Below are positions 53,138-63,161 of a DNA stretch of 64,000 nucleotides, piece after piece; positions within the stretch are counted from its first letter, which is position 1; each line of letters begins with the position of its first letter. The DNA comes from Nakamurella sp. PAMC28650 (GTDB lineage Bacteria; Actinomycetota; Actinomycetes; Mycobacteriales; Nakamurellaceae). The stretch covers positions 4,235,001 to 4,299,000 of the forward strand of contig NZ_CP060298.1 in the NCBI RefSeq assembly GCF_014303395.1, in the 5' to 3' direction. A program made the position numbers and the translations under genes. Below the pieces are notes generated by a model. It searched no databases, was not told where the DNA came from, and saw nothing but the letters and a program-made list of their open reading frames with translations.

Positions 53138-54544
53138 ATGACGGCACAAGCCCTTTCACGAGCGGACCACGCCACCGGCGGCACCGCGGTCAGCACCACC
53201 CGGGCACGGTGGGACTCATCGGTGCGGCTGGCATTTCTGGTGGCCTGCTGGTCGAGTCTGCTGCTGGTAACCTACTGGTGGGCCAGCGGCGGGGGCATCT
53301 CGGACCTGACCGGCTGGGAGACCGGGCTGACCTCGACGGGTCGGCTGACGGGGCTGCTGTCCGCGGACCTGCTACTGGTCCAGGTCCTGCTGATGGCCCG
53401 AATACCGTTGCTGGAGCACGCGTTCGGGCAGGACCGGCTGGCCCACGTCCATCGCCTGGTGGGGTTTGCCTCCTTCAATCTGATGCTCGCGCACCTGGTG
53501 CTCATCGTCTGGGGCTACGCCGCCGGGAAGCTGAGCGCGACGCCCGGCACCCTCTGGGACATGACGATCCACGATCCCGGCATGCTGCTGGCTGCGGGCG
53601 GCACCCTGTGCCTGATCATGGTCGTCGTGACCAGCGTCAAGGCCGCCCGGCGCAAGTTGCGCTACGAGTCCTGGCACCTGCTGCACCTCTACGCCTACCT
53701 GGGTGTCGGGCTGGCTCTGCCCCACCAGTTGTGGACGGGTCGGGAGTTCCTGGCCAGCACGGCCAGGACCGTCTTCTGGTGGGGCTTGTGGATCGCCTCC
53801 GTGGCAGCGGTTCTGGTGTGGCGACTGGCCCTGCCGCTGTGGCGCAGCGCGCGCCACCGCATCCGGGTCACCGCCGTCGGACCGGAAGGCAGTGGGGTGA
53901 TCTCGGTGCACATGGCCGGTCGCGGATCCCGGATACGGGCAGAGGCGGGGCAGTTCTTCAACTTCCGGTTCCTGAGCGGTGCGGGTTGGACCAGATCCCA
54001 TCCCTACTCCCTGTCCGCCGCCCCCGACGGGCGCCATCTGAGGATCACCGCCAAGGTGGTCGGGGACGGCAGCGCGGTGCTTTCCTCGCTGCGTCCCGGG
54101 ACACGGGTGCTGGTGGAAGGTCCGTACGGCCGTCTCGGTCCTCGTGCCCGCACCCGGCCACGAATCGCACTGATCGGGGCCGGGGTCGGGGTGACTCCGT
54201 TGCGGGCACTGGCCGAAGCGCTGACCTATGCGCCGGGGGAAGCCGTTCTGCTGTACCGGTTCTCCGGAGTGCCACTGTTCGAGAGCGAATTGCTCCGGCT
54301 CGCCGATCAGCGGGGCCTTCGGGTGGTTTTTCTGCCCGGGCACCGGCGGCACGCCGGCTCCTGGCTCGGGTCCGGCATCGGACCGGCCGACGACCTGACG
54401 GCCCTGACCCGCTGGGTGCCGGACATCGCCGATCGCGATGTCTACGTCTGCGGTCCCCAGGAATGGGCGCAGGACGTCCGGCGGACCACCGAGGCCGCCG
54501 GGCTGAGGGCAGACCAGTTCCACGTCGAAAGCTTTGGGTGGTAA
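53138..54544 (+). CDS. ferric reductase-like membrane flavocytochrome (second copy)
   Basis: 468 residues. Six helices with heme histidines (RLAHVHRLVGFASFNLMLAHLVLIVWG, YESWHLLHLYAYLGVGLALPHQL) are followed by an FNR part: GQFFNFRFLSGAGWTRSHPYSLSAAPDG (R-S-H-P-Y-S, FAD), VLVEGPYGRLGPRARTRPRIALIGAGVGVTPLRALAEAL (NAD(P)H) and RDVYVCGPQEWAQDVRRTTEAAG, ending FGW as in this family. It is clearly paralogous to the copy at 49488 and is directly followed by an FMN-binding protein and apbE. Confidence 0.92.
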   Translation: MTAQALSRADHATGGTAVSTTRARWDSSVRLAFLVACWSSLLLVTYWWASGGGISDLTGWETGLTSTGRLTGLLSADLLLVQVLLMARIPLLEHAFGQDRLAHVHRLVGFASFNLMLAHLVLIVWGYAAGKLSATPGTLWDMTIHDPGMLLAAGGTLCLIMVVVTSVKAARRKLRYESWHLLHLYAYLGVGLALPHQLWTGREFLASTARTVFWWGLWIASVAAVLVWRLALPLWRSARHRIRVTAVGPEGSGVISVHMAGRGSRIRAEAGQFFNFRFLSGAGWTRSHPYSLSAAPDGRHLRITAKVVGDGSAVLSSLRPGTRVLVEGPYGRLGPRARTRPRIALIGAGVGVTPLRALAEALTYAPGEAVLLYRFSGVPLFESELLRLADQRGLRVVFLPGHRRHAGSWLGSGIGPADDLTALTRWVPDIADRDVYVCGPQEWAQDVRRTTEAAGLRADQFHVESFGW

Positions 54545-54549
54545 CAGCT

Positions 54550-55038
54550 GTGAAACGCATCGTGATGTTCTTCATGAGCACCGTCACCGTCCTGGTGTTG
54601 CTGCTCGGTTACCACACGTCCACCTCTTCGAAAGCGGTCGGGGGCGAGACCGCGTTCGTGTCCACCCGGGAGGCCGGGCCGACCAGCGCTGCAGCGGCCC
54701 CCGCCACCAGCGCCGCGGCAGCGCCCAGCACCAACGCCGCGGCAGCCCCTAGCACCGGTAAGAACGCCACCGTCACCGGCAGCGTCGCGGATACCCGATG
54801 GGGGCCGGTCCAGGTGCAGCTGACCGTGCAGAACGGCAAGATCACCGCCGTGTCGGTGGTGCAGTACCCGAACGGCAACGGTCGGGACCAGGAGATCAAC
54901 TCCTACGCCCTGCCGATCCTGGTCCAGGAGACGATCACCGCGCAGAGCGCCAAGGTCGACATGGTCAGCGGCGCCACCGTCACCAGCGACGGCTACCTGA
55001 CGTCCCTGCAGAGCGCCATCGATCAGGCCGGGCTGTGA
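54550..55038 (+). CDS. exported FMN-binding-domain protein (covalent flavin carrier)
   Basis: About 162 residues from GTG 54550 (an earlier GTG at 54538 is possible). VKRIVMFFMSTVTVLVLLLGYHTS is a signal anchor. An Ala/Ser/Pro linker with three imperfect TSAAAAPST repeats leads to an FMN_bind domain: VTGSVADTRWGPVQVQLTVQNGKITAVSVVQYP and INSYALPILVQETITAQSAKVDMVSGATVTSDGY. The D-x-V-S-G-A-T stretch is a canonical ApbE flavinylation site (FMN on the Thr). It would receive electrons from the flavocytochrome encoded upstream. Confidence 0.92.
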   Translation: MKRIVMFFMSTVTVLVLLLGYHTSTSSKAVGGETAFVSTREAGPTSAAAAPATSAAAAPSTNAAAAPSTGKNATVTGSVADTRWGPVQVQLTVQNGKITAVSVVQYPNGNGRDQEINSYALPILVQETITAQSAKVDMVSGATVTSDGYLTSLQSAIDQAGL

Positions 55039-55877
55039 ACCGATCGGGCCGGGCTACGAATCAATCAGGCCCGACTGCGACACCGGTTGATGCCGATGAC
55101 CCCGCTGCATCCGACATCAAGTCCGCCACGGCTCGGTACGTGGAACACGTCATGGGCATGCCGGTCAGCCTCGCACTGCGAGGGCGGCACAGCCGCGACG
55201 ACCGGGCCACCGCTGCCTGGTCGCGGGTCATGGCCGTTCTGCGCGACGTCGACGCGGTGTTCAGCACATACCGACCCGACTCGTTCATCAGCCGGCTGGG
55301 GCGCCACGAGATCACCGTCCAGGACTGCCCGCCCGAGGTCGCAGAGGTATTCGCCCTTGGGCAGGCCGCCGAGTGGGAGTCGGACGGCGCGTTCAGCATC
55401 TCGCTCCCCGGCCCCGGCAACACCCGCGTCCTGGACCCGAGCGGCGTCGTCAAGGGCTGGGCGGTGGAACGGGCCGCCGCCGCATTGCGGGAGTTGCCCG
55501 GGACCGACTTCTGTCTCTCGGCCGGAGGCGACATAGTCTGTCGCACCGTCGATACCAGGGGCGCCCTGTGGCAGATCGGGGTGGAGGACCCGCGCGATCC
55601 CAGCCGGATCCTGGCCGTCGTGCCCGTCCGCACCGGCGCCGTCGCCACCTCCGGCACGGCTCATCGCGGACACCACCTGATCGACCCCCGGACCGGGCTG
55701 AGCCCCGTCGGCGTCGCGTCGGTCACCGTCGTGGGCCCATCGCTGACCGGTGCCGACATCGACGCCACGGCCGCGTACGTGCACGGCCGTGATGCCGCCC
55801 GGTGGCTGCGGACCCGCCCGGGCCGCACGGGTCTGGTCGTCTGGGAGGACGGCAGCACCACGATCGTGCAGCCGTAG
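55035..55877 (+). CDS. apbE: FAD:protein FMN transferase (ApbE family), second copy
   Basis: 280 residues from GTG 55035, GTGA overlap with the FMN-binding gene. VEHVMGMPVSLALRG, RDVDAVFSTYRPDSFISRLGR, WESDGAFSISLPGPGNTRVLDPSGVVKGWAVERAA, DFCLSAGGDIVCRT, and GAVATSGTAHRGHHLIDPRTGLSPVGVASVTVVG are the ordered ApbE blocks. The position right after its substrate gene makes the pairing clear. A metal-binding Asp/Thr near the end (GADIDATAAYVHG) is retained. It is shorter at the N-terminus than the other ApbE in this window. Confidence 0.92.
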   Translation: MNRSGRATNQSGPTATPVDADDPAASDIKSATARYVEHVMGMPVSLALRGRHSRDDRATAAWSRVMAVLRDVDAVFSTYRPDSFISRLGRHEITVQDCPPEVAEVFALGQAAEWESDGAFSISLPGPGNTRVLDPSGVVKGWAVERAAAALRELPGTDFCLSAGGDIVCRTVDTRGALWQIGVEDPRDPSRILAVVPVRTGAVATSGTAHRGHHLIDPRTGLSPVGVASVTVVGPSLTGADIDATAAYVHGRDAARWLRTRPGRTGLVVWEDGSTTIVQP

Positions 55878-56784: not shown

Positions 56785-57810
56785 CTATCGTGCGATCGCC
56801 TCCTGCACGGCGATCCGGAAGAGATCGGACAGCGGTATCCCGGCGGCCTCGGCCATCATGGGGATGACGCTCTTCCCGGCGAAGGAGCAGTAGAGGCCGG
56901 CCTCCAGGAACCACGGCTGCCCGCTGGGGTCGATCCGGAAGTCGAAAAGGCTGTAGTCGCGACATCCCAGGGCCACGTGACACTTCTTCGCCGCTTCCCA
57001 CACCCGCGACGTGATCGGATCACCCAGGTCCACCATCCACGCCTTCGACAACTGCTTCGCGACCAGGTTGAGGTCACCGTCGTCGTTCCGGCTGATCTTG
57101 TCGTCGTGATTCCTGATCGGCTTGGTCGCACTGTCGACCCGGTACTCCTCCAGCGGCAGCGCGACGAGTTCACCGTCACGCACCAGGATGCCGCAGCGAA
57201 CCTCGCGGCCGAGTTCGACGAACGACTCCACCAGGGCCCCGCCGGAATGGGCGAACGCCAGCTTGAGGGCGGCGCCGTACTCCTCCCGGCTGCGGACCAG
57301 GCTCACACCGAGGGAGTTGTCGCCGTCGACCGGTTTCACAACCACCGGCAGCGGGAGGGACGGCTCCGCTCCCCCTCGGCGGAGTACCTCGCCGGGCGGT
57401 ACGGCCACACCCGCTGCGGCCACGACGGCTTTCGCGTGCGCCTTGTTCGCGGTCATCGCCATCACGTCGGGGGTGTTCCCCACGTAGGGCAGCCCGAGCA
57501 CATCGAGCAACGCCCGGTAGGACGTCATGCCGGGGAGGCAGAACATCTGCGGCACCACGACATCGAGCCGGAGCGCCGTCAGGTGCTGCACCGCCTCGCT
57601 CAACGGCATCGGCGGTGCCGAGCCGATCGCTTCGGGGCTCAGATCGGCCGGGAACCGCCATTGCAGATCCGGGGTCACATAGGCGACGTGGAATTCGTAG
57701 CGTTCGGCGTCCGCCGTAGATTCCAGCGCATCCTTCGCATACAGACGCGACAGATCGCACAGGAATTCGCTGACCGCGGAACCCACCAGGTGCAGCACAC
57801 GGGCGGTCAC
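56785..57810 (-). CDS. mysD: mycosporine-like amino acid ligase MysD (D-Ala-D-Ala ligase family)
   Basis: 341 residues from GTG 57810, three bases after the mysC stop. The text VLHLVGSAVSEFLCDLSRLYAKDALESTADAERYEFHVAYVTPDLQWRFP is a MysD opening, not that of cell-wall Ddl. PQMFCLPGMTSYRALLDVLGLPYVGNTPDVMAM, VVKPVDGDNSLGVSLV (ATP-grasp), VELGREVRCGILV and YSLFDFRIDPSGQPWFLEAGLYCSFAGKSVIPMM follow. MysD joins a second amino acid (Ser, Thr or others) to mycosporine-glycine, giving shinorine-type products. It is the last gene of the operon. Confidence 0.94.
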   Translation of the reverse strand: MTARVLHLVGSAVSEFLCDLSRLYAKDALESTADAERYEFHVAYVTPDLQWRFPADLSPEAIGSAPPMPLSEAVQHLTALRLDVVVPQMFCLPGMTSYRALLDVLGLPYVGNTPDVMAMTANKAHAKAVVAAAGVAVPPGEVLRRGGAEPSLPLPVVVKPVDGDNSLGVSLVRSREEYGAALKLAFAHSGGALVESFVELGREVRCGILVRDGELVALPLEEYRVDSATKPIRNHDDKISRNDDGDLNLVAKQLSKAWMVDLGDPITSRVWEAAKKCHVALGCRDYSLFDFRIDPSGQPWFLEAGLYCSFAGKSVIPMMAEAAGIPLSDLFRIAVQEAIAR

Positions 57811-57813
57811 CGG

Positions 57814-59208
57814 TCAGTCCCCGGCCGGCTCGACGAGTTTGCCGATGTTGAAGTCGATGCGCACCCAGTACTTCAGATGCAGGAGATTGTGCAGCAGCAA
57901 CCACGGGATCTGCGCGTGGTGGACCATCAGGAACGGCAGCGGATCGTTCCAGTCGAAGATGGCGTCCTTCCCGCGACGGATCGTCGCGAGCCGGGACCTG
58001 ATGTTCTTCGGCTGCGTCACCAGACGCCAGATCTCGTGGTAGATCCAGTAGGTGGGCCGGCTACCCTCCAGCGGCTTGATCATCGGGACGCCGTCGTCGA
58101 GGTAGGCCGACGCCAGGTCGGGATGGTCGTAGAACATCGTGATGGCCGAGTGGGTCCGGGGATTGCACTCGATGGCGTAGAGACCGCCGTCATCGGCCTC
58201 GATGAAATCGAAGCTGACCTGGCCGGTGATCTTCAGCGGTTCGACGAATTTCCTGACCCATTCCTCGATCTCGGGCTTGTCGACCATCTGGTAGTTGATC
58301 TGGAACGCCGACGACTCGCAGCAGCAGTAGACCTGGATCTTCCCGTCCCGCACGGTGCTGTGGGTGCAGTACTCCTGGCCGCGGACCATCGCCTGCATGA
58401 TCCACGGGTTGTCCGCCGAGATCGGTTTGGACGCAGCGAAAGCGGCGGTCTCCGCCTGGGTGGGGCGAGGCAGCGTGGTGAGATCCATCCGGTGGACCGG
58501 GTCGTAGGCGATGCTCTTGAGGATGTAATCCTGCTCGGCCCCGCCGAAGTCGAAGTCGTCGACCTGACGCGCCGACGAGATGCGGTGGGTGTCGGGCACC
58601 GACAGACCCAGCGAGGCGGCCCGGGAGGCGAACTCGTACTTGTCGTCGACGGTCCGGATCATGTCCAGGTCGCAGTGCAGCACCTCGCAGTACTGCGACA
58701 GGGCCGGCTTTGTGAGCGCGTCGTAGTAGCTGGCCGCCGGGCTGCAGACCGGTACGTAGACATCGACGCCCTCCTTGCGCACGATGGCGATCAGCGCGTC
58801 CACGTAATCGGGCGACTGCGGTTTCGGAATGGTGTGGAAGCGGTCGACGGCCCGGGAGAATCGATGTCCGGTCAGCCAGTACTTGCCCGATTCGACCAGG
58901 ATGACCCGGTGGCCGTCCGCGTGGAACGACCGCGCGAGTTGCAGCGCCTTGGTCATCTTGCCCCCGCTGATCAGGATCGTACTGGGCCGCAGCGCTTTCC
59001 GTCGGGAGGGGCCGACGAACTTCGACCGGACCAGCGCGACCGCCGTGAGCAGCAGGTTCAGGGGTAGGGCCAGCAGGAGCAGACCGAGGGCACCGAGCGT
59101 CTTGGACACGGTCTTCACCGGGCGCCGCCCAGCAGGGACGGGTGCGGGGACGTGTGCAGGCGCGGATTTCTCGGTGGATGTCGAAGCGGATGCCTGGGAG
59201 GGAGACAA
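57814..59208 (-). CDS. mysC: mycosporine-glycine synthase MysC (ATP-grasp)
   Basis: 464 residues. A Pro/Ala-rich start and one hydrophobic helix (TLGALGLLLLALPLNLLLTAVALV) precede the diagnostic block ILISGGKMTKALQLARSFHADGHRVILVESGKYWLTGHRFSRAVDRF. Others are VCSPAASYYDALTKPALSQYCEVLH, QAMVRGQEYCTHSTVRDGKIQVYCCCESSAFQINY, GQVSFDFIEADDGGLYAIECNPRTHSAITMFY (ATP-grasp metal site) and the final VRIDFNIGKLVEPAGD. MysC activates 4-deoxygadusol with ATP and adds glycine. The helix suggests membrane association, as in cyanobacterial MysC. Confidence 0.95.
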   Translation of the reverse strand: MSPSQASASTSTEKSAPAHVPAPVPAGRRPVKTVSKTLGALGLLLLALPLNLLLTAVALVRSKFVGPSRRKALRPSTILISGGKMTKALQLARSFHADGHRVILVESGKYWLTGHRFSRAVDRFHTIPKPQSPDYVDALIAIVRKEGVDVYVPVCSPAASYYDALTKPALSQYCEVLHCDLDMIRTVDDKYEFASRAASLGLSVPDTHRISSARQVDDFDFGGAEQDYILKSIAYDPVHRMDLTTLPRPTQAETAAFAASKPISADNPWIMQAMVRGQEYCTHSTVRDGKIQVYCCCESSAFQINYQMVDKPEIEEWVRKFVEPLKITGQVSFDFIEADDGGLYAIECNPRTHSAITMFYDHPDLASAYLDDGVPMIKPLEGSRPTYWIYHEIWRLVTQPKNIRSRLATIRRGKDAIFDWNDPLPFLMVHHAQIPWLLLHNLLHLKYWVRIDFNIGKLVEPAGD

Positions 59209-59265
59209 GGCTGGTGTCCCGTCTGTTTCGTCGATACCGGAGTCTGCTGGACGACGGGACGACGG

Positions 59266-60096
59266 CTACGCCGCCGCCGGTCCGGCGCTGAGCCGGCCGT
59301 ACCCCGTCACCATGCCGCGGTGCATCACCCGGTCGCCGACGACGTCACCGTGGTCAGCTCGATGCAGGACGCAGCCGTTGTCCCACATCACCACGTCGCC
59401 GGGCGACCAGGCGTGACGAAAGGTGTTGTCCTCGGCGGTGGAATGGCGGTAGAGGTAGTCGATCATGCTGCGCCCCTTCGCATCCCCCATACCGCTGATG
59501 GACACGCAACGCTCCGGGGTGGACAGGTACAGCGCCGTCCGGCCGGAGATCGGGTGCGGACGGAAAACTGGATGCTCGGCCTCGGTCTCGTCGTCCTCGC
59601 CGAGGTCGAGGCCGGTCACGACGTGCTTGATCATCCGGCCCTCCAGCTCCGCCCGGATGTCACCCGGCAGGGTCTCGAACGCCCGGTACTGGTTGGTGAA
59701 GAGAGTCTCCCCTCCCCGCGCGGGGATCTCGACCGCCCGCAGCGCGGTGTAGGCGGGCGGGTTGCGCACGTAGCTGGTGTCGACGTGGAACACGCTGCGG
59801 GGCGGGGTGGTCCGCCCGACGTTGCTGATCACGTTGAGATCCGGGAAGCCGGCCACGGGCGTCTCCCCGGTGGAGAAGGTCAACTCCCCGAACCGCTTCA
59901 GGAACGCGACGAAGGCTGCGTCGTCCACGTCCTGGCCCGGCAGGACCACGACGCCGTGGTCGGCCAGCAGACGCCGCAGTTCGGCGAGCACGTCCTGATC
60001 GACCTCGCCCAACGGCAGGTCGGTGATCCTCAGACCGATCGGGGCCAGGACTTCGTGATGCATGGTCTTTCCCTTCGAGAACTGCGCGTGCGTCAT
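59266..60096 (-). CDS. TauD-type Fe(II)/2-oxoglutarate dioxygenase in the mys operon
   Basis: 276 residues from ATG 60096, ATGA overlap with mysB. The facial triad is visible as SVFHVDTSY (H104, D106) and WDNGCVLHRAD (H245); R260 in RVMHRGMVTGY fits 2-oxoglutarate binding. The fold text GLRITDLPLGEVDQDVLAELRRLLADHGVVVLPGQDVDDAAFVAFLKRFGEL is standard TauD/TfdA. Known mycosporine tailoring uses MysH, from a different (phytanoyl-CoA hydroxylase-like) branch. This enzyme may hydroxylate, demethylate or decarboxylate the product. It lies between mysB and mysC in one operon. Confidence 0.88.
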   Translation of the reverse strand: MTHAQFSKGKTMHHEVLAPIGLRITDLPLGEVDQDVLAELRRLLADHGVVVLPGQDVDDAAFVAFLKRFGELTFSTGETPVAGFPDLNVISNVGRTTPPRSVFHVDTSYVRNPPAYTALRAVEIPARGGETLFTNQYRAFETLPGDIRAELEGRMIKHVVTGLDLGEDDETEAEHPVFRPHPISGRTALYLSTPERCVSISGMGDAKGRSMIDYLYRHSTAEDNTFRHAWSPGDVVMWDNGCVLHRADHGDVVGDRVMHRGMVTGYGRLSAGPAAA

Positions 60097-60977
60097 CGGT
60101 CTGAAAGCCCGGTCGCGTCGACCCGACGAATCAGGGTCAGACCGTCGCGTAGCGGGATGATCACCTGTTCGACCCGGGCGTCAGCGGCCACCCGCTGGTT
60201 GAACTCGGCGATCGCGGCCCCGTTCGGCGTCGAGGAACCAGGCACCCACGGCTGCCCCTGCATCAGGGTGTTGTCGACGCACACCAGTCCGTGTGGTGCC
60301 AGCAGTCCGGAGTCCAGGATGGCGTCGAGATAGGCGGCGTAGCCGCCCTTGTCGGCGTCGATGAAGATGAGATCGAAGACCTGGCCGGCGGCGGCCAGTT
60401 CGTGCAGGGTGGTCAGGGCGGGGCCCACTTGGACCGTGATCCGGTGCCCCACGGCGGACTCCTGGAAGCAGCGCTGCGCGAAGGCGGCGACGTCGGCATC
60501 GATCTCGCAGGCGACCAGCCGACCGCCGTCCGGGAGCGCTTCGGCCATCGCGAGTGCCGAATACCCGGTGAACATCCCGATCTCCAGCACGTGCTCGGCG
60601 CGGGTGGCGTGCACCAGCATCTTCAGGACCTGGCCCTCGACGTGGCCGGAGAGCATCTCCTGCTCCAGAGGTCCGGGCCCCTCGCCCTGGGGACGACGAT
60701 TCCAGTCCTGCTCCTGGGTCCGCCGGGTGAGCAACCTCAGCGCAGCGGACTCCGGTGTCGTCCAGCGGTCCAGGTAGGGATCCAGACCTTGTGCGAGCTC
60801 GCAGATCTCGCGGAGTTCCGACATCAGGGACGGCTCGACGCCGTCCGCCTCGCCCACCCGCTGGAGGAGTTGCTCGAGTCGGTGCGCCAGGATGCTGCTC
60901 GGTGTCACCGGTCTCGGCGAGCCCGGCACCGACGTGGTGGCCGGGTTCCTGCGAGCCGCTGCGATTGACCCGGTCAT
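60093..60977 (-). CDS. mysB: O-methyltransferase MysB (4-deoxygadusol formation)
   Basis: 294 residues from ATG 60977, ATGA overlap with mysA. After about 120 helical residues comes [42 protein letters not shown] (SAM motif I, GxFTGYS as in class I O-methyltransferases of the caffeoyl-CoA type) and [47 protein letters not shown] with the metal-binding Asp and Asn. MysB methylates 2-demethyl-4-deoxygadusol. The position directly after mysA is as in cyanobacteria. Confidence 0.93.
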
Positions 60978-62179
60978 ACGGTGAACATCTCTTCGCCGGC
61001 GCCCCCGCGCGGGTAGTGACCGCACACCTCGCCGTGGATGGTGAGCATCCGGTCGAGCTCGTCGCCGGTCAGATCGTTGATGAAGTAGCAGGTTCCGATC
61101 GGCCTGGGTACGGCAGCCCGGAGTTGGCCGTCGCGGGTCTGGATGATCGCATCGGTTCCCTTGCCCAGCAGTTCGGAGGTGAGGTGGGGGCTGTTCAGGG
61201 CAAGCCCGAGCCGGCTCATCAGCCAGAAGATCCGGTCGCGCTCGCTGACCGAGATGTAGCCGCGCTGCTCGGCAAGGGTGGTCGAGAAGGCCATGTCGAT
61301 GTTGATGGCCTGGCCGTGGAAGAACGGAACCTCGGGCGTCAGCTCCAGCACGGGGCTCCAGGTGTGGCCGAAGGCGATCACCCGGTCGAGATCGAGCTCG
61401 TGCAGGTTGGGAACCTCCAGCCGCAGCATCGTCTCGATGGCCTGGTAGGTGACCTGCTGGGCGATCTCCCGCAGCTCCTGCGTCCCGTCGAGATGACCGA
61501 ACCGGGTGTGCAGCAGATCCTCGCCGTACTTCTCCAGGAGCTCGAAGATCCCGCTGTTGGCGACGGTGGAGATCTTGATCAGCTCGGCCATCCCGTTGCG
61601 AACCTGGTCGGTCGGAAGGGTTTTCAGGAACGAGAAGTCCAGGATGACCTTCTGGGATGCGTGGTAGGCACCCAGGCGGTTCTTGGATTTTCCGTGGTTC
61701 ACGCCCACCTTGATGGAGACGCTCGCGTCGATCAGTCCGATCAACGTCGTGGGGATCCGGATGTAGTTCGTCGATCGGCGGTAGGAGGCACAGGCGAACC
61801 CGGCTACATCGGTCGTCAGGCCGCCACCGACGACCAGCACCGGTTCGGTGCGCAGCAGCCCGAACTCGCCGAACGCGTCCACGATCGATTCGACCGTCCG
61901 CAGGGTCTTGGCGGTTTCCCGGATGGCGACCGGGAACATCGTCAGATCGATGTGGTGGTAGTCGAAGTAGGCACGCATCTGCTCGCCGTTCAGCGCGTAC
62001 ACGGCGTCGTCGATGACCATCAGGCAACGCCCGAGATGGCGGTAGCTGTCGGCGATCTCGGTGTTCTCGACGTTGAAGGCGCCATCGACGTACAGCAGCG
62101 AGTAGTCGATCTTCTCGTAGGCCTCGATGTGGAATGCGGTGTCCGTCGCGGTGAAGGTCGGTTGCAGCTGGGCGGTCAT
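60974..62179 (-). CDS. mysA: 2-demethyl-4-deoxygadusol synthase MysA (sugar phosphate cyclase)
   Basis: 401 residues from ATG 62179 (GGAG nine bases upstream; an ATG at 62236 lies in a GC-rich leader). It belongs to the dehydroquinate-synthase-like cyclases: [85 protein letters not shown] and [37 protein letters not shown] give the NAD and zinc (E, H, H) sites. The cyclase uses sedoheptulose 7-phosphate. DDGS rather than epi-valiolone synthase is inferred from the mysB-D neighbours. Confidence 0.94.
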
Positions 62180-62282
62180 TTTTGATGCATCTCCAGTTCG
62201 TTGGTCGGCGCGCAGGGCGGCGCACGCGCGCGGCAAGGAGCACTTGCCTGCACGCAGGATCGAGTGGGTGAGGTTCGGCCGA
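62180..62282 (-). promoter_or_regulatory. spacer between the HAD-like gene and mysA
   Basis: 103 bases with the stem GCAAG-GAGCA-CTTGC (about 62234-62248 on the plus strand) and a CG-rich repeat of GGCGC/GCGCG units at 62208-62233. This may attenuate read-through from the HAD-like gene or hold the mysA promoter. No clear -35/-10 pair is seen. Confidence 0.35.
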
Positions 62283-63161
62283 TCAGTTCAGTCCGGCGAC
62301 CAGCTGCAGTTCGCGCACGTCCAGCCGGTCGACGCTGCGATCGGCGGCGGCGACGTCGTGCCCGGCCGTGTTCTCGTTCAGGAAGGCGACGCAGACCAGA
62401 CCGGCGGCTACGGCGGACTGCACACCGTCGACGTTGTCCTCGATGGCGACGCACTGCGTCGGGCTCTCGTCCAACATCTCGAGCGCGTACGAGTACGCGG
62501 CCCGGTCCGGCTTCGGCTGTCCCACGCTCGACGAGTCGACGACGACGTCGAAGTCCTGGCGGCGTACCTGGGGGCTCAGCGCCGCCAGCAGCGCCGAGAC
62601 GTTCTCGCGGGAAGTGGTCGTCACCAGACCGACCTTCCAGCCGCTCTTCCTGGCGTCCCGGATGGTGTCGACGACGCCTTCACGCGGCGCCAGCTCCGAC
62701 GTCGCCAACGCGTCCTGGAAAATCCTGGATTTCGTCTCGTGCACCGCCCGGGCGTCGACGCTGTGCCCCAGTGAGTGGGCGTAGTCGGCGACTCTGTCCT
62801 GCCCGCCGCTCCTGGACAGCATGGTGCGGTAGGTCTCGCGATCCCAGTGCCAGTCGAGGCCGTGGGCCTCGAACGCCTGGTTGAATGCGCGACGCTGGAG
62901 TTCGGAGGTGTTGGCGACGGTGCTGATCGAGCCGAACAGGATTGCTGACATCTGGGGTAACCCATTCTGTTGGTGGTCTGCCTGGTCGCAGGCGGGGAAA
63001 GTTCCGACCGAGCGCGTGGCCGCGGCGTGGTCAGGTCCGGCGAGAACGACCTGGGCCCAGTTCATGTCGAGCTGACCCTTTCGACGAACGCACCAATCTC
63101 CGTACCGGTGGCCGGCAAGGAAGCGCCGGACCGGGGTGGCCGTCACGTTCTGTTCGGTCAT
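62283..63161 (-). CDS. HAD-fold protein lacking the catalytic aspartates
   Basis: The HAD part starts at ATG 62951 (222 residues), but the frame is open with high third-position GC to ATG 63161, which has a good GAGGA site, giving 292 residues with a 70-residue extension; I prefer the longer form with moderate trust. Motif I, normally DxDGT, reads [11 protein letters not shown], so both Asp residues are gone. The other parts remain: cap helix [11 protein letters not shown], motif [13 protein letters not shown], motif [13 protein letters not shown], motif [20 protein letters not shown]. The fold is of the beta-phosphoglucomutase type. Catalysis by the usual mechanism is not possible. It is the first gene of the mys operon by order. 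Confidence 0.75.

Follow-up and report, generated by a model that had tools for sequence, protein, structure and literature searches.

A HAD-fold protein lacking the catalytic aspartates in the mycosporine-like amino acid operon of Nakamurella sp. PAMC28650

Background

What does a protein of the HAD fold do in a pathway for mycosporine-like amino acids (MAAs)? The question is raised by a stretch of 64,000 nucleotides from Nakamurella sp. PAMC28650 (contig NZ_CP060298.1, positions 4,235,001 to 4,299,000; hereafter the window), in which six minus-strand genes make up what their predicted products and spacing mark as a single MAA operon. They follow one another in the order HAD, mysA, mysB, TauD-type dioxygenase, mysC and mysD, and all six frames are open. 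The operon and the presence of its two extra genes are already published: passages of one publication report an MAA cluster in this strain, missing from two other Nakamurella, and a genome of 5.63 Mb in one scaffold with 67.9% G+C (PMC9789016), and passages of a 2025 preprint (GATOR-GC) describe MAA clusters of actinobacteria in which the HAD and TauD/TfdA genes are conserved at > 60% (PMC11888242). What is new here is that one of the two extra genes appears to encode a conserved pseudo-phosphatase, and that the HAD-TauD pair occurs also in cyanobacteria. Taken as a whole, we consider it quite probable that this is an MAA operon with a palythine-forming dioxygenase and a non-phosphatase HAD protein that acts as a ligand-binding accessory.

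Loss of motif I in a conserved HAD-fold protein

The HAD-fold gene (62283..62951, minus strand; Pfam HAD_2) encodes a predicted CbbY-like pseudo-phosphatase of 222 aa, for which both the sequence and a structure model indicate a HAD fold with a cap like that of CbbY (structure comparisons, here and for the dioxygenase, are a re-ranking of Foldseek's own best matches). Where CbbY has the motif FDVDGT the window's protein reads FGSIST, so that GSI stands at the place of the motif I DxD nucleophile and acid/base. Both aspartates are absent from 120/120 homologs among the matches listed and from 56/56 locus HAD proteins above 150 bits, a count that leaves out the duplicates L004, L005 and L102, as well as L107 and everything < 150 bits. 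Among the proteins below that score, eight canonical ones keep DVDGT (L090, L101, L104-L108, L113) and three from Chamaesiphon read GAIGT (L097, L098, L109). Motifs II-IV are kept, with T111, K147 and E171 in 79/79 sequences and D172 in 78/79. To our knowledge, every known HAD hydrolase mechanism uses the nucleophile and acid/base aspartates, and because both are lost no hydrolysis can be inferred from this gene. The earlier note on this DNA had taken the HAD-like gene to imply a modified product, a step that these residues do not sustain; the candidate role as an ordinary phosphatase was likewise rejected for the loss of motif I. By sequence and model together, the most likely reading is that of a CbbY relative which has lost its nucleophile and acid/base and is no phosphatase.

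The gene is nevertheless kept by selection. Pairwise dN/dS, obtained by simple counting over the aligned segments, ranges from 0.05 to 0.35 across 15 pairs picked for closeness, mostly slightly above that of mysA and near that of the other mys genes. The retention of a gene whose catalytic residues are gone suggests that it probably has a function other than phosphate cleavage. Its start is probably at 62951, giving 222 codons, because its close homologs (78-84% identical) have 222 residues; the 70-residue extension from the ATG at 63161 (292 aa), which the earlier note had used as the upper bound of the region, is probably non-coding.

Distribution in actinobacteria and cyanobacteria

Gene neighborhoods were collected around MysC, the loci being the best 80 of 293 and biased to near relatives. 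Actinobacteria account for 41/80, including L050, whose record title reads Melainabacteria, but which is the same contig as G020, of the window's order, and whose genes group there. The HAD gene lies inside the locus in 38 of them; the remaining three are cut by contig ends and their two genomes hold HAD on another contig, which brings the count at locus or genome level to 41/41. In 43/45 loci measured it precedes mysA and shares its strand; in the other two (L088, L089) it lies downstream of a divergent cyclase. An even sample of 396 genomes contains eight HAD matches at E <= 1e-30, of which seven lie in mys clusters, in the very seven genomes where a mysA-like gene is matched at E <= 1e-60; the eighth (G130) is a canonical phosphatase with no mys genes beside it. 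Within the genus Nakamurella a strong MysC match is found in 2/17 genomes, among them the window's own, which is one contig of 5,629,850 bases.

Presence of TauD without an aspartate-less HAD was seen in 0/6 of the actinobacterial sample. The converse does occur: HAD is open without an intact TauD in L079, L086, L092, L038, L042, L067 and the cyanobacterial L070, and a strict tie of HAD to TauD was rejected on this ground. Some of these actinobacterial states hold for the locus alone: the genome-wide search for TauD covered only G251 and G471-G474, and for L038, L042 and L067 TauD was read from the locus. Selection on HAD in clusters of this kind was measured in three pairs, with dN/dS of 0.08 for L079/L086 (neither with TauD), 0.08 for L067/L085 (one of the two with a broken TauD) and 0.21 for L038/L042 (TauD damaged in both).

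The idea that HAD is confined to Actinobacteria was rejected too, as it is present in 10/38 cyanobacterial mys genomes: eight have both HAD and TauD, two HAD alone, none TauD alone and 28 neither (state counts leave out L029 and the plasmid record L112). The co-occurrence is strong when kinship is ignored (Fisher p 9e-7). The two genomes with HAD alone (L046, L070) are both metagenome assemblies, and in L046 HAD lies near a contig end. In L096 and L098 HAD and TauD stand together as a separate two-gene unit, distant from mysABCD. Of 244 cyanobacterial genomes sampled evenly, 17 have a MysA at least 60% identical and two have a HAD match, one of them canonical (G651) and the other in the chosen centre genome.

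Phylogeny and relatives outside MAA clusters

The trees leave out L102 and rows under coverage limits (the L067 TauD among them), and those of MysA and MysC further leave out L004-L007 and L118. A single clade of HAD-positive cyanobacteria is rejected on the MysC tree (p-AU 9e-8), yet the cyanobacterial HADs other than the FGAIGT forms are a single clade (8 rows, support 99), as are the cyanobacterial dioxygenases (8 rows, support 100); this points to repeated joint loss, or to transfer among cyanobacteria. With the motif region removed, a clade (100/96) unites the mys-linked HADs, adjoined (97/84) by a FGSIGT pseudo-HAD of the Roseobacter plasmid pROLI81 (L103:7989-8660) that sits among unrelated genes with no MAA setting. 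Both aspartates are missing from 119 other listed homologs of the pROLI81 protein (118 by pattern, one by eye), some of which carry names that assign them to Roseobacter, Yoonia, Sulfitobacter or Pseudothioglobus. That the pseudo group as a whole lost its aspartates only once is not shown, as the canonical L090 falls inside it, with weak support, once the motif region is omitted. For both HAD and MysA the trees nest cyanobacteria within actinobacteria; however, actinobacteria as one clade are not rejected (p-AU 0.524 for HAD, 0.946 for MysA), and a direction of transfer between the two phyla was therefore dropped and is not claimed.

The operon and its predicted products

The route from sedoheptulose 7-phosphate to a disubstituted MAA is established chemistry of these families. 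MysA (60974..62179, minus; 401 aa; Pfam DHQ_synthase) scores 577 bits against 5tpr, 251 bits against 4p53 and 123 bits against the best dehydroquinate synthase; we take the first to be the Anabaena desmethyl-4-deoxygadusol synthase and the second the epi-valiolone synthase ValA, both entries having generic molecule names. A tree of 83 rows (35 cyanobacterial, 44 actinobacterial counting the window's own, 4 outgroup) places it with the MysA of the 35 cyanobacterial and 43 other actinobacterial loci and apart from the genome's own dehydroquinate synthase; the tree test that the earlier note had named as a possible refutation thus does not go against the operon reading. Its assignment to the desmethyl-4-deoxygadusol synthase (DDGS) kind is supported by these comparisons, and MysA would convert sedoheptulose 7-phosphate to desmethyl-4-deoxygadusol. 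MysB (60093..60977, minus; 294 aa; Pfam Methyltransf_3), a predicted O-methyltransferase, would methylate that compound; MysC (57814..59208, minus; 464 aa from a TTG start; Pfam ATP-grasp_3), an ATP-grasp ligase, would add glycine to 4-deoxygadusol; and MysD (56785..57810, minus; 341 aa from a GTG start; Pfam Dala_Dala_lig_C), an ATP-grasp ligase like D-Ala-D-Ala ligase, would add a second amino acid, as in the shinorine type.

MysB, MysC and MysD homologs adjoin one another in the window, and since the mys genes co-occur in most of the 80 MysC loci a chance grouping can be excluded. The wording by which the earlier note had recognized MysC and MysD is present in the translations, and the junctions it described are exact: 4-base overlaps (ATGA) at mysA/mysB and mysB/dioxygenase and a 3-base gap at mysC/mysD. 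Its observation is thus confirmed, while its interpretation is supported in part. The dioxygenase/mysC gap is 57 bases, and HAD and mysA are 103 bases apart, or 46 if the TTG at 62236 is the start of mysA.

Two actinobacterial mys clusters (L088, L089; genomes G146, G284) have a cyclase only 36-37% identical to MysA, with HAD, mysB, mysC, mysD and TauD all present; the L089 cyclase scores 238 bits against 5tpr and 186 against 4p53. A link of HAD with divergent cyclases in places other than MAA clusters was considered and dropped, as these are full mys clusters in which only the cyclase is divergent. In L091 (G251) a second MysA-like cyclase, 41% identical, is encoded at a distance from that genome's mys cluster.

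The TauD/TfdA-family Fe(II)/2-oxoglutarate dioxygenase (59266..60096, minus; 276 aa; Pfam TauD, PF02668) has the HxD...H iron triad and the 2-oxoglutarate arginine, and H104, D106, H245, R256 and R260 are invariant in an alignment of 60 chosen rows, known damaged copies left out. ScoE and Rv0097 are TauD-family enzymes acting on an N-carboxymethyl group. The most likely reaction of the window's enzyme is oxidation of the N-linked glycine at its alpha carbon, upon which glyoxylate would leave and a palythine-type amine remain; that the enzyme alters the MAA product is put forward as plausible. In L038, L042 and L067 the dioxygenase gene is damaged and the mys cluster otherwise looks intact, which suggests a loss of the tailoring step.

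Upstream of the operon lies a divergent gene for a DUF2079 membrane protein, and downstream a convergent short-chain dehydrogenase gene. Clustering of the open reading frames of the loci, with shadow frames roughly removed, found no gene common to most of them beyond HAD, mysA-D and TauD. A TetR-type regulator-like gene, recognized by eye, occurs in 13 clustered loci (L039, L021 and L065 included) and adjoins the mys genes where read; none was noticed beside the window's operon. Further off, at 53138-55877 on the plus strand, consecutive genes for a ferric-reductase-like protein, an FMN-binding protein and ApbE resemble a flavinylated electron-transfer set.

Interpretation and alternatives

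The dioxygenase is not seen without HAD, and on this ground the HAD protein most likely works as a ligand-binding accessory of the pathway; the actinobacterial HAD also appears to serve a purpose for which the dioxygenase is not needed. A more general proposal, which we advance tentatively and would put at somewhat less than an even chance, is that MAA-linked HADs are a clade of conserved pseudo-phosphatases that are working parts of sunscreen biosynthesis, on which the palythine branch depends and which actinobacteria keep even when that branch is gone. With it, the broader sister group of GSIGT proteins from marine bacteria would add one more unrecognised family of HADs that lack the aspartates.

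Several observations weigh against the accessory reading. The 28/38 cyanobacterial mys genomes without HAD mean that mysABCD as such does not need it, and its retention where TauD is lost means that it is not simply a TauD subunit. Among the eight cyanobacterial genomes with both genes, one (L027) has an in-frame TAA in HAD and a TauD that looks intact, and two from Chamaesiphon carry a distant FGAIGT HAD, in one case on a contig different from that of TauD and in the other case as two copies, one of which is by TauD. When kinship is considered by phylogenetic pairs, five supported pairs differ in HAD and TauD differs the same way in 4.3 and the opposite way in 0.0 on average, a trend in the same direction that is not significant (sign test median p 0.125); moreover, ten pairs differ in TauD and HAD differs in only 4.5 of them.

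The alternative that fares best, though we still regard it as unlikely, makes HAD a dedicated partner of TauD, in a complex or in the handling of a hemiaminal or glyoxylate, with no other role. TauD without an aspartate-less HAD in 0/8 cyanobacterial and 0/6 actinobacterial genomes speaks for it, as do the adjacent pairs away from mysABCD in two cyanobacterial genomes; however, HAD is open and selected in clusters with no intact TauD, and the L027 HAD has a stop beside an intact TauD. Somewhat less likely again is a service to the cyclase step, where HAD, by binding sedoheptulose 7-phosphate or a sugar phosphate akin to it, would regulate or assist MysA. Its position immediately before mysA, in the same orientation, in 43/45 loci, its kinship to a sugar-bisphosphate phosphatase and its persistence when TauD is lost would fit such a role, but most cyanobacterial mysA genes do without HAD, HAD-TauD pairs are found away from mysA, and L088 and L089 keep HAD, downstream of the cyclase, despite the divergence of the latter.

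A doubt of about the same low weight concerns the dioxygenase, which might act at another site of the molecule, for example the ring or the second amino acid, or might have an unrelated substrate, as its solved structural relatives have varied substrates. Against this, at E <= 1e-40 it matches only mys-bearing genomes in the sample of 396, and palythines are said to come from a related operon, passages of the preprint citing unpublished expression of a Rhodococcus fascians operon that gave shinorine, palythine and palythine-serine (PMC11888242). It is improbable that HAD has gained a new, aspartate-independent activity in which GSI[SG]T would serve as the active loop: the loop is more strongly conserved than simple decay would leave, also in the 119 other listed homologs of the pROLI81 protein, but there is no candidate substrate and we know of no precedent for HAD catalysis independent of aspartate. 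That HAD is a mere passenger, as its absence from 28/38 cyanobacterial mys genomes might hint, is very hard to reconcile with its presence in 41/41 actinobacterial loci and 7/7 in the even phylum sample, and with its low dN/dS.

If the protein is a pseudoenzyme, the consequences are practical. The gene is filed under HAD hydrolases in sequence databases and in a recent genome-mining preprint; for a pseudoenzyme the hydrolytic step implied by that name would not exist, and in rebuilds of actinobacterial sunscreen pathways HAD would deserve testing as a partner or regulator, above all at the dioxygenase step. The HAD-TauD module in some cyanobacteria suggests that palythine-type products may be encoded there without MysH.

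Comparison with known systems

Miyamoto 2014, cited in both PMC9789016 and PMC11888242, is said to have described such clusters in two actinobacteria, Actinosynnema mirum and Pseudonocardia sp. P1, with homologs of mysA to mysD in one cluster. In a library with few subscription journals, none of the listed papers on aspartate-less HAD proteins dealt, by title or abstract opening, with the MAA-linked family; in the same library haloacid dehalogenase is mentioned together with mycosporine in the GATOR-GC preprint and in one paper on an alga. The clusters in the available passages of the GATOR-GC preprint (PMC11888242) have the same two extra genes as the window's operon; there, HAD is treated as a haloacid dehalogenase domain whose role is unvalidated, and HAD and TauD are stated not to be present in Cyanobacteriota, whereas here HAD lacks the catalytic aspartates and both genes are found in 8/38 cyanobacterial mys genomes. 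MysI, described in 2023 from MAA clusters of Nostoc sp. UHCC 0926 as a TauD/TfdA dioxygenase for which glycine hydroxylation leading to palythine was proposed (PMC10510106), shares family and MAA context with the window's dioxygenase, as compared by description only, but is described beside MysF and MysE. A TauD of a Nostoc plasmid (L114; one opened, among 40 listed of 111 records) was considered as MysI and, not being in an MAA setting, was not used. MysH, presented in parts of two sources as a phytanoyl-CoA-type dioxygenase of palythine formation (PMC10510106, PMC11378024), is likewise 2-oxoglutarate-dependent but belongs to a different family, the window's gene being PF02668. Finally, the xylulose-1,5-bisphosphate phosphatase CbbY (4uar, 4uat, 4uau), as far as the excerpted account goes (PMC10212915), has the fold and motifs II-IV in common with the window's HAD protein, and differs in that both motif I aspartates are gone from the MAA-linked HADs.

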